Shown piece by piece: positions 38,793-55,708 of a stretch of 64,000 nt of DNA; positions within the stretch are counted from its first letter, which is position 1, and the number at the start of each line of letters is the position of its first letter. Origin of the DNA: Candidatus Nomurabacteria bacterium (GTDB lineage Bacteria > Patescibacteriota > Saccharimonadia > Saccharimonadales > Saccharimonadaceae); NCBI GenBank assembly GCA_031257295.1, contig JAIROX010000004.1, forward strand, positions 62,001-126,000. Reading direction: 5' to 3'. A program made the translations under genes and the position numbers. Under the pieces are notes generated by a model. The model did no database searches and was not told the DNA's origin. It saw only the letters and a list, made by a program, of their open reading frames with translations.

Positions 38793-38825
38793 CACGACAA
38801 CACTAGTCAAAACGCGCAAAAACCA

Positions 38826-52765: not shown

Positions 52766-53479
52766 ATGTCTGTTGATATTGACATTAAAAAACTGCTGGA
52801 GTCTGGTGCGCATTTTGGTCACAAAACTAGCCGCTGGCACCCCAAGATGGCGCCATATATTCATAGCAAGCGCCAAGACAGTCATATTATTGACTTAACC
52901 AAAACGGTGGAGGCGCTAGAGAGTGTGCTGCCCGAGCTAACTAAAGCAGTCGCCAAGGGCGGTAAAGTGCTGTTTGTAGGCACTAAAAAGCAAATTCGTC
53001 CGATTATCAAGGAAGTCGCAGAGGCTACGGGACAGCCATATGTTACTGAACGCTGGATTGGCGGCACATTAACTAACGTTAAAACAATTAACCAACAGGT
53101 TAAAAAATTGCACAATCTTGAGAAGCGCATGGAAACGGGCGAGCTTGAAAAGCGTTACAGCAAGCTTGAAGTGCAGCGTTTTGCTGAAGAAATTGAGGCG
53201 CTGAACGAAAAATATGGTGGCGTTAAAGACTTGAGCGGTAAGCCTGCCGCGGTTGTGGTGATCGATGTGGTGGCCGAGCGCAACGCTGTAAAAGAAGCTA
53301 AGACTTTAGGTATCCCGGTGCTTGCGCTGGTGGATACCAATGCTGACCCGAGCGAAATTGACTATGTGATCCCAGCTAACGATGATGCCATCAAGAGTGT
53401 GCAGCTCATCTTAGGCTATATAGGTGAGGCCGTCAAAGAAGGCCTAAAGAATGTCAAAAAGGTGGAGGACAAAAAGTAA
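52766..53479 (+). CDS. rpsB: 30S ribosomal protein S2
   Basis: 237 residues: 'LLESGAHFGHKTSRWHPKM', 'LFVGTKKQIRPIIKEVA' and 'GIPVLALVDTNADPSEIDYV' are uS2 hallmarks. The ATG at 52766 follows GGAAAGGA; the ORF extension to 52619 overlaps the promoter and is rejected. tsf starts at its stop, the usual rpsB-tsf order. Confidence 0.97.
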   Translation: MSVDIDIKKLLESGAHFGHKTSRWHPKMAPYIHSKRQDSHIIDLTKTVEALESVLPELTKAVAKGGKVLFVGTKKQIRPIIKEVAEATGQPYVTERWIGGTLTNVKTINQQVKKLHNLEKRMETGELEKRYSKLEVQRFAEEIEALNEKYGGVKDLSGKPAAVVVIDVVAERNAVKEAKTLGIPVLALVDTNADPSEIDYVIPANDDAIKSVQLILGYIGEAVKEGLKNVKKVEDKK

Positions 53480-54078
53480 TGGCAGATTTTACAGTTGAAG
53501 ATATCAAAAAACTCAAGGAATTGACTGGTGTGGGCTTAACTGATGCTAAGACGGCGCTAACTGAAGCCAAAGGTGACTTCGACAAAGCGGTTGAGGCCAT
53601 GCGTAAAAAAGGCCTAACTAAGGCCGAAAAGCGTGGCGACCGTGAAGCTCGTGAAGGGGTGATTGACTCATATATCCACGATGGCCGAATTGGCGCTATT
53701 TTGGAGCTAAACTGCGAAACCAGCTTTGTGGCCAAAACCGATGCGTTCAAGGAGCTGGCCCATTACATAGCTATGCAGATTGCCAGCATGAACCCAGTTT
53801 ATGTAAGCGAAGGTGATATCCCTGAAGCTGACATGAAGAAAACTCGCACGGAGTTTGAAGATAAGCTAAAGGACGACAAAAAACCAGCTGACGTAAAGGC
53901 GAAGATTATCGATGGTCAGGTTAAAAAGCATTTTGAAGACAAGGTTTTGCTGAGCCAAAAGTATATTTTGGATGATAGTGTAACTATAGAAGGCTTAATT
54001 AAGAACTACATTGCCAAAACAGGCGAGAACATTGTAGTCCGTCAGTTTAAACGCATGGAATTAGGCGTTACTGAGTAG
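53479..54078 (+). CDS. tsf: Elongation factor Ts
   Basis: Nucleotide exchange factor for EF-Tu. N-terminal UBA-like 'LKELTGVGLTDAKTALTEA' with 'AVEAMRKKGL', then 'DGRIGAILELNCETSFVAKTD' (quoted in part). 199 residues, the short form with one core subdomain reduced. Its ATG overlaps the rpsB stop. Confidence 0.96.
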   Translation: MADFTVEDIKKLKELTGVGLTDAKTALTEAKGDFDKAVEAMRKKGLTKAEKRGDREAREGVIDSYIHDGRIGAILELNCETSFVAKTDAFKELAHYIAMQIASMNPVYVSEGDIPEADMKKTRTEFEDKLKDDKKPADVKAKIIDGQVKKHFEDKVLLSQKYILDDSVTIEGLIKNYIAKTGENIVVRQFKRMELGVTE

Positions 54079-54100: not shown

Positions 54101-54136
54101 TACCACCCTTGCTCAACAGGGGTGGTAATGCTTTTT
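54101..54136 (+). terminator. Probable terminator after tsf
   Basis: TACCACCCT pairs with AGGGGTGGTA (one bulge) around an 8-nt loop; CTTTTT follows after 4 nt. Confidence 0.65.
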
Positions 54137-54149
54137 AGGCGCAAGGGTA

Positions 54150-54178
54150 TTGACATTTTAAGCCGCTTGTGCTAAACT
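54150..54178 (+). promoter_or_regulatory. Strong promoter of the candidate ncRNA
   Basis: TTGACA (54150-54155), 17-nt spacer, TAAACT (54173-54178) preceded by TGC. Core identical over 27 bases to the promoter at 38825-38851. Confidence 0.85.
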
Positions 54179-54184
54179 GCCAAG

Positions 54185-55123
54185 TACAAGCTGATACAGG
54201 ATCAGCCAACAAAAATAAAAAGTTTTAGTCCTAAAAAATTGAAACCGATTATCGTAGTTGACGGATTCGTTCAATGTCAGTTTGTCGCAGATTAAACAGG
54301 ACCGTTTGGTTCGTCGAATTATTGCAGTTACTTTGTTGCTTTGTTCGGTGGAACTTAGTTTTACCCTAAAAAGTGAGGCCTAGTTTTACTTTATGCTTTG
54401 TGACTTTTCTTAGACCAGTTTTCCTAACCCGATTATTGATTTAAGGTTTTGTGATTGTTTCCGGTTTGGCATTTATCCCTTTCGGCCTCTGTTTATCCGC
54501 ACCTTTCAATCACTAGCTTTACCGAAGTTTTTCTAGGTTTATAATTAGCTAATTACTTGTTATTTACTTAGCTACTTACTTTCAGGTTCTATCTTTTACA
54601 TTTTTCTATTTGATTTACCTCTTATAGTTTGGTGTTTTGTGATAGTATACTCAAGTTTTTGGGAGTTTTTTGTTCTTCCATTTGCACCTGTTGGTTTTAT
54701 CTGTAAGGTTTTTATAGTTTTCTATTTACCTTAAAAAGTTTATAGAGCTTTTGCGCTAAGCTTGATCACTTAGTTTAAAAGTTGCTGTTTAAATTTTATA
54801 GTTTGTAAGATTTTTTCGGATTTAGTTTTTATATGTTTGATTAAACACTTATATATGATTTCTTTGTTTGTTCTTCTTACTTTTTCTTCGGTTGGCACTA
54901 TCAACTCTTCGTGGTTGGGGTGGTGAGTTCAAGTTTCGGCTTGTTCTTACCACTCCCACCATGAAAAAGTAGTAGTAATGTGTATGTGGGTCCTCGGACC
55001 TGCACACGGCTAGTTTGAAAGAACACTGTGTAAAGTGGTGCACACCTTTACACGATGGCCATGTCGAGAGTCCTTCCTTAACCGGTGGGATTTTCGATTT
55101 TCTGGGGCTTTTGCCTCTTTTTT
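54185..55123 (+). ncRNA. Candidate large structured noncoding RNA (~0.94 kb)
   Basis: No ORF with coding character crosses this gap between tsf and frr. The unit has a consensus promoter, a perfect 5' hairpin GCTGAT-ACAGG-ATCAGC (54190-54206) and a 3' terminator. Internal pairings seen by eye: GTGATTG/CAATCAC (54451-54457 with 54507-54513), GGTTGGGGTGGT/ACCACTCCCACC (54913-54924 with 54949-54960), GGTCC/GGACC (54989-55000) and GTGTAAAG/CTTTACAC (55028-55053). Three small hairpins of the type TTTTA-xxCC-TAAAA occur near 54224, 54359 and 54726. The middle is very T-rich. It does not match tmRNA, RNase P, SRP or 6S RNA by any landmark I know. Confidence 0.6.
55104..55123 (+). terminator. Intrinsic terminator closing the ncRNA unit
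   Basis: GGGGC-TTTT-GCCTC (one G-T pair) followed by six T's, just before the frr -10 element at 55126-55131. Confidence 0.7.
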
Positions 55124-55153
55124 GTTATAATCAACTTAATAACTTGGAGGCAT

Positions 55154-55708
55154 ATGTTTACGTTAGATACCTATGAAAAGAAGATGAGTGATGCGCTGGG
55201 CCATTTTCAGAGTGAAATGAATAAGGTTCGCACTGGGCGAGCTCATCCATCAATGCTTGATAGTGTACGGATAGAAGTGTATGGTACTAAGTTGCCGCTT
55301 AACCAAGCCGCGAACGTAACAGCACCAGAGGCTAGTATGATATTGATTACACCGTATGACGCCGGTAATATCCCGGCCATATCGAGCGCGATTCGGGCCG
55401 ATCAGTCCCTGGGGCTAAACCCAAGTGACGATGGCCGCGTGGTGCGCGTGCCGATCCCGCCAATGACTGAGGAGCGCCGCAAGCAAGTGGTTAAACAGGC
55501 TAGCGAAAAGGTTGAAGAATCAAAGATTGCCCTGCGCAATATCCGCCAAGATGCCATTAAAGAAGTCAAGAAGCTTAAGGATGATAAAGAGGTTTCTGAA
55601 GATGACCAAAAGCGGCTTGATAAAGAAATCGAAAGCTTGGTAAAAGACTTCACGGCCAAGATTGATGAAGCGTTCAAAGTTAAAGAAGCGGAAATACTGA
55701 AAGTTTAG
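55154..55708 (+). CDS. frr: Ribosome recycling factor
   Basis: 184 residues: 'MNKVRTGRAHPSMLDSVRIE', 'LNPSDDGRVVRVPIPPMTEE' and a helical C-terminus 'EIESLVKDFTAKIDEAFKVKE' (in part). Splits ribosomes after termination with EF-G. ATG 55154 follows TTGGAGG; the ORF extension upstream overlaps the terminator. TATAAT at 55126-55131 is its -10. Confidence 0.96.
   Translation: MFTLDTYEKKMSDALGHFQSEMNKVRTGRAHPSMLDSVRIEVYGTKLPLNQAANVTAPEASMILITPYDAGNIPAISSAIRADQSLGLNPSDDGRVVRVPIPPMTEERRKQVVKQASEKVEESKIALRNIRQDAIKEVKKLKDDKEVSEDDQKRLDKEIESLVKDFTAKIDEAFKVKEAEILKV

Follow-up and report, generated by a model that had tools for sequence, protein, structure and literature searches.

The window analysed here is a stretch of 64,000 nucleotides (bases 62001-126000 of contig 4) from a genome of 747,608 bases distributed over six contigs (label G000). 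Within the window, a gap of 1,075 bp separates tsf (53479-54078) from frr (55154-55708), identified by Pfam as the genes of EF-Ts (PF00889) and of the ribosome recycling factor (PF01765). The gap contains no ORF of at least 65 amino acids, the longest one (64 amino acids) being encoded by the opposite strand. All six frames are interrupted by 18-30 stops each, and the search of all six against Pfam gave no match. A first-pass annotation, which had pointed to a gap without a plausible ORF, is borne out in this respect. All stretches lacking ORFs of at least 70 amino acids were ranked along the genome, using contigs rebuilt from the fetched pieces. By this rule the gap measures 1,006 bases and ranks third, after two stretches of the rRNA operon region; outside that region, no longer stretch without ORFs exists in the 747-kb genome. 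The GC content of the gap drops to 26-36% in its middle, and the T skew of the plus strand is strong. The locus is present as a single copy in its genome.

The candidate RNA gene is carried by the plus strand. Its promoter (54150-54178) consists of a -35 element TTGACA (54150-54155), a spacer of 17 nt and an extended -10 element, TGC-TAAACT, with its hexamer at 54173-54178. The first-pass annotation had already proposed the promoter TTGACA-17-TAAACT, to which the TG preceding the -10 element can be added. This site (TTGACATTTTAAGCCGCTTGTGCTAAACT) fits the motif TTGAC-N15-20-TGnTAnnnT, which behaves as a house type: it occurs 99 times genome-wide, compared to 8 times in shuffles. Near copies of the promoter precede a tRNA-Lys gene and, near 38825, another reading frame. 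A simple consensus scan yielded 10 promoter-like sites versus 5.2 expected, which is weak when taken on its own. The promoter is kept in a relative of the same genus (G001), and the conserved part of the RNA sequence starts at about 54184, the expected transcription start. Upstream, tsf is followed by a terminator-like hairpin on the plus strand (54101-54127), an 11-pair stem followed by ATGCTTTTTA, which is predicted to separate tsf transcription from the RNA gene; this hairpin is not clearly preserved in G001. At the other end, an intrinsic terminator (GGGGC-UUUU-GCCUC-UUUUUU) is found on the plus strand at 55104-55123. The closing terminator with six T's described earlier is therefore present, but the consensus scan retrieves such sites at chance level on their own (3 versus 2.8 expected). 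The hairpin at the end of the G001 RNA is a different one, with AUGGCC before a UUUUUU run. The interval 54149-55123 assigned to the gene in the first-pass annotation is accurate, as it runs from the start of the promoter to the end of the terminator. A separate extended -10 element of frr (TGTTATAAT, 55126-55131, plus strand) lies just downstream and is also conserved in G001. Since frr has an extended -10 of its own, read-through from the RNA would not be required for its expression. Given the promoter, the terminator and the separate frr element, the RNA appears to form a unit of its own.

The predicted transcript of about 940 nt (54184-55123, plus strand) was folded; all folds described here are energy-model predictions. 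Compared to shuffled sequences in two separate runs, the plus strand gave z-scores of -7.4 and -8.3, and the minus strand -2.9 and -3.0. Five domains can be delineated on the plus strand. Domain I (54186-54285) begins at the predicted transcription start and is closed by the helices 54186-54196/54275-54285 and 54199-54207/54260-54268; its helices are shared with G001 and show one-sided changes that preserve pairing. The perfect 5′ hairpin reported in the first-pass annotation (GCTGAT-ACAGG-ATCAGC) is present in the sequence, but in the predicted fold its two halves pair within this longer domain. The other hairpins listed there are also present in the gap. Domain II (54294-54494) is closed by the helix 54294-54304/54483-54494, and its interior differs between the two species. 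Domain III (54503-55021) forms the main multi-helix junction and is closed by the helices CUUUCAA/UUGAAAG and ACUAGCU/GGCUAGU, which are identical in both species. It comprises three subdomains. Subdomain IIIa (54521-54892), closed by ACCGAAG/CUUCGGU, is an array of arms composed of short helices with UU/UU and UUU/UUU loops between them. Subdomain IIIb (54897-54976) is a long hairpin with a single UU/UU loop at 54927/54946 and is the most sequence-conserved part of the RNA. Subdomain IIIc (54980-55007) is a hairpin in which GUGGGUC/GACCUGC is replaced by GUGGAUC/GGUCCGC in G001, pairing being kept. The sequence of the domain IV hairpin (55024-55057) is poorly conserved, and the relative is predicted to form a hairpin of its own there. 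The domain V hairpin (55063-55098; GUCGAGAG...UUUUCGAU) carries two compensatory changes in the relative. Sequence conservation is densest at the base of domain III and in its long hairpin, where uninterrupted identity reaches 46 bases; in the arms containing U loops, the type of structure is better preserved than the sequence.

G001 was the only genome of the same genus available for comparison, and the RNA comparison relies on two sequences. In its contig 3 (24,241 bases) the genes follow the same order, and a counterpart of the RNA is present that is 72% identical over the aligned part. The conservation in relatives anticipated by the first-pass annotation is thus observed within the genus, where G001 keeps both promoter and fold at the syntenic site. 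When the two RNAs were folded independently, 154 base pairs were found in common, compared to a mean of 2.7 and a maximum of 17 in 12 runs of column shuffling. The same test applied to the flanking genes gave 11 shared pairs for tsf and 7 for frr, within the range of their own shuffles. The RNAalifold energy of the shared-pair alignment was -162 versus -71 ± 9. An earlier RNAalifold calculation on a longer alignment gave -180 versus -48 with 31 pairs changed on both sides, the structure in that case being fitted to both sequences. Finally, the fold of each species was projected onto the sequence of the other. In this test 75-76% of the pairs were canonical, compared to 40-50% when the partner was slid by 1-3 columns. 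This excess is mostly due to invariant pairs. Among the varying pairs 46% were still paired, no better than in the slid controls, and double changes numbered 24 and 21 versus 9-17 in these controls. Part of the low figure for varying pairs may be due to alignment errors or to genuine divergence of the variable arms. Covariation counted over the whole RNA carries little weight with two sequences, and because varying pairs stay at control level we claim compensatory change for particular hairpins only. It is clear in four of them, at 54589-54645, 54829-54858, 54986-55003 and 55063-55098.

A striking feature of both folds is the abundance of symmetric internal loops made exclusively of U (UU/UU or UUU/UUU). 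The window RNA contains 14 of these 2x2 or 3x3 loops and the G001 RNA 13, many of them separated from the next by a few base pairs. In 25 dinucleotide shuffles the means were 1.4 and 1.6, with maxima of 3 and 5, respectively. Structures sampled from the ensembles contained on average 10.7 such loops for the window RNA and 11.9 for that of G001. Six loops occupy homologous places, and the others belong to arms that are not alike in the two species. The homologous loops of subdomain IIIa lie at 54580/54693, 54602/54631, 54609/54624, 54821/54866 and 54825/54862 (base before/after). In this subdomain the relative carries about 83 extra nt, which fold into two additional arms of the same type. The best supported example is the hairpin 54589-54645, where the helices CUAUC/GAUAG, CAUU/GGUG, CUAU/AUAG and GA/UC are separated by UUU/UUU and UU/UU loops. 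In G001 the corresponding helices are UUACC/GGUAA, UAUU/GAUA, CUAU/AUAG and AG/CU. Several stem pairs have therefore changed on both sides, and the UUU/UUU and UU/UU loops are identical. We scanned the U-rich windows of the whole genome on both strands for such loops. The RNA locus came out alone on top, with windows containing 3, 4 and 5 loops, and every window in the rest of the genome contained at most 2. The same scan of 740 kb of a neighbouring-genus genome (G067) revealed no outlier. The single outlier in a sister-genus genome (G011) is antisense within an ORF of 721 amino acids and was dismissed as a chance occurrence.

The Rfam 15 scan of the whole window gave no match in the gap at the gathering score, including for GOLLD, ROOL, OLE and raiA. 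At lax threshold the sole match in the gap was a chance one, to CRISPR-DR2 (E 4.6). The Rfam search proposed in the first-pass annotation thus links the gap to no known RNA, and the landmarks of tmRNA, RNase P and SRP RNA which that annotation had failed to find are indeed lacking there. RNase P RNA (RF00010) is encoded elsewhere (L068 18552-18891). A hidden tmRNA in the gap had been suspected because smpB is present but this RNA had escaped both ARAGORN and the Rfam scans, which covered most of the genome. This identity was rejected, as the Rfam model places tmRNA (RF00023) at G000:C4:41656-42041 with 88.7 bits, a gene that ARAGORN misses. Just downstream of that tmRNA gene, outside the window, lies a 770-nt ORF-free stretch (G000:C4:42497-43266; L069:2497-3266) with a modest fold z-score of -2.3, partly conserved (76%) near the tmRNA gene of G001. 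Small SRP RNA (RF00169) has no match in the gap, and the canonical GGAAGGAAGCA motif is absent from the genome. The SRP model exceeded its cut-off in none of 40 relatives from the family and order, as opposed to 9 of 14 control genomes. The SRP RNA of this group is absent or unrecognisable as judged from these genomes. Since this is a property of the group, it gives no hint about the RNA gene, and a hidden SRP RNA was rejected as its identity.

To describe the distribution of the RNA, we used two covariance models, R1 for its 3′ part, built using subdomain IIIb, and R2 for its 5′ part. Among 394 genomes of the family, both models matched in two genomes of the same genus only. R1 found no further match in 295 genomes of the order and 380 of the phylum. 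All these searches apply strict filters, with which remote relatives could be missed. DNA, pattern and model searches of phage, plasmid, viral-contig and genome-contig records yielded nothing beyond the genus. Two weak matches of R2 were considered. The first, in G374, lies inside a ligase gene (ligA by translation) and was attributed to chance. The second, in G195, has an E value of 0.046, and its locus contains no R1 match. The tsf-frr gap is itself a variable spot, ranging from 27 bp to more than 1 kb in relatives (L011-L038). In other genera it is either short or occupied by unrelated protein reading frames, which differ between genera and lie on either strand. The alignment of syntenic gaps suggested by the first-pass annotation therefore fails outside the genus. 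The gap of G108 (g11), with a GC content of 36% and two ORFs on the other strand, was rejected as a homologue.

The genome contains other ORF-free stretches outside the window. A 507-nt stretch (L085:8521-9027; G000:C3:128521-129027) has a z-score of about -8.8 on both strands. It is 72% identical in G001, parts of it match three g11 genomes and G067, and it has no Rfam match at the gathering score; it may be a structured RNA or a leader common to the family. A LOOT RNA (RF03000, 83 bits) is located at L055:18699-18813 (G000:C1:58699-58813), inside a 721-nt ORF-free stretch.

Taken together, these data lead us to conclude with high confidence that the segment 54150-55123 is the gene of a structured non-coding RNA whose structure is conserved. 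On sequence grounds, the best reading is that of a new large non-coding RNA, a free-standing predicted transcript of about 940 nt restricted to one genus. The dedicated, lineage-specific RNA gene put forward in the first-pass annotation is supported by the syntenic promoter and fold and by the lack of a match to known RNAs. The RNA presents the features of the descriptive kind 'large ornate bacterial non-coding RNA', being free of ORFs, at least 0.5 kb long and extensively structured in a conserved way. We infer that it works as a folded molecule. By analogy with OLE, ROOL and GOLLD, to which it is not homologous, it is plausible, if somewhat short of probable, that it serves as a structural scaffold. 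The conserved core junction, formed by 54503-54530 with 54886-55021, would hold quasi-continuous arms, in which short helices would be spliced by stacked U-U mismatches within the UU/UU and UUU/UUU loops. Such arms could behave as rods that avoid the long perfect duplexes open to RNase III, in our interpretation, and the rods would position junctions and loops so that the RNA could self-assemble or dock proteins. Its confinement to a single genus speaks against the RNA being essential in general.

Alternatively, the U-loop modules could bind a small RNA-binding protein, for instance of the cold-shock or Hfq-like type, which the RNA would titrate as a multi-site sponge. CsrB titrates CsrA, and in CsrB, too, a single small structural motif is repeated many times. 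The 13-14 repeated modules of one kind, varying in number and place between species while their type is kept, are consistent with this role. However, the modules are internal loops buried in helices and not exposed hairpin loops, whereas the CsrB repeats are GGA hairpin loops. Much conserved sequence also lies outside the modules, and no protein partner is known, so that we consider a sponge unlikely.

Two further possibilities stem from the position of the RNA. It could be a long cis-regulatory leader of frr, acting as a riboswitch or attenuator, as it is on the same strand, directly upstream of frr and ends in a terminator. This is improbable, given that the terminator is followed by the separate conserved -10 element, that about 100 nt separate the RNA end from frr in G001, that the RNA is far larger than usual leaders and that no such element precedes frr in other genera. 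Equally improbable is a selfish or mobile RNA element, or its remnant, inserted at a variable spot. The gap is occupied by other genes in other genera and the RNA is confined to one genus, as expected for such an element. Yet the RNA is present as a single copy and at the same place in both species, it contains no ORF and matches no Rfam intron, no phage or plasmid match was obtained, and three pattern scans of viral contigs gave no true match.

We also examined whether A-rich strands, in cis or in trans, might dock into the U-rich loops and form U-A-U triple helices. The model for this is the ENE of PAN and MALAT1, where U-rich internal loops also face each other between helices. In the predicted folds, paired UUU/UUU loops are flanked by helices, and runs of A5-A6 occur near the 5′ end in both species. 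However, ENE U loops comprise roughly 5 U, and those of this bacterial RNA are shorter (13-14 loops of 2x2 or 3x3) and without clear A-rich partners. Unpaired A-runs number 3 and 1 in the two species versus about 0.7 ± 0.8, with no clear excess in both, and a triple helix appears highly doubtful. Last, despite its low GC content, its T-richness and the two sequences known, it is extremely improbable that the locus is AT-rich, T-skewed junk or a decayed gene folding by chance, in view of the 154 shared pairs versus 2.7, the z-score of about -8, the U-loop excess, the conserved promoter, the identical blocks of up to 46 bases and the six frames free of any protein trace, the Pfam search ruling out a protein-coding remnant.

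The scaffold reading draws on known large RNAs. Only a small number of large ornate RNAs are known, namely OLE, GOLLD, ROOL, raiA and a few more. Of these, three have only recently been shown to form RNA-only particles. OLE comes from extremophilic Firmicutes and has known protein partners. It is a large RNA with long coaxial pipes (RF01071; PMC12286853). These pipes offer the closest picture, by analogy, for the stacked arms proposed here, but the present RNA does not match the OLE family in Rfam, and OLE differs in having known protein partners. GOLLD (RF01998) is a free-standing, ORF-free RNA of at least 0.8 kb with an ornate multi-domain fold and unknown function (PMC12286853). The candidate RNA, as seen in its sequence and predicted fold, resembles it in being free-standing, ORF-free and ornate with multiple domains; however, it sits between housekeeping genes and not in a prophage or tRNA island, and has no Rfam match to GOLLD. 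To our knowledge, arms with U-U loops have not been described for GOLLD. ROOL (RF03087) is a large ornate RNA, imaged in an example of 659 nt, which forms RNA-only assemblies, and OLE, ROOL and GOLLD all form RNA-only oligomers (PMC12286853). The candidate RNA is similarly large and ornate in its sequence and predicted fold, but it differs from ROOL in size and sequence and has no Rfam match to it. The comparison with OLE, GOLLD and ROOL made in the first-pass annotation thus holds for size and style, as an analogy without family membership.

We tentatively propose, as a possibility to be held with caution, that the RNA represents a new class of large RNA, in which arms of U-U-spliced short helices, with UU/UU and UUU/UUU loops in alternation, would be gained and lost as modules around a fixed, conserved core junction. 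Such an RNA would serve an ultra-reduced and presumably host-dependent bacterium as an RNA-only scaffold or assembly particle. The repeated U-U module lends itself to testing in vitro, as the RNA can be produced and imaged with no need for a culture of the organism. If this proposal is true, a genome of about 0.75 Mb would devote nearly 1 kb to an RNA class with an unusual repeated U-U loop module, so far confined to one genus, and large RNAs could arise in single lineages and be retained there despite their cost.
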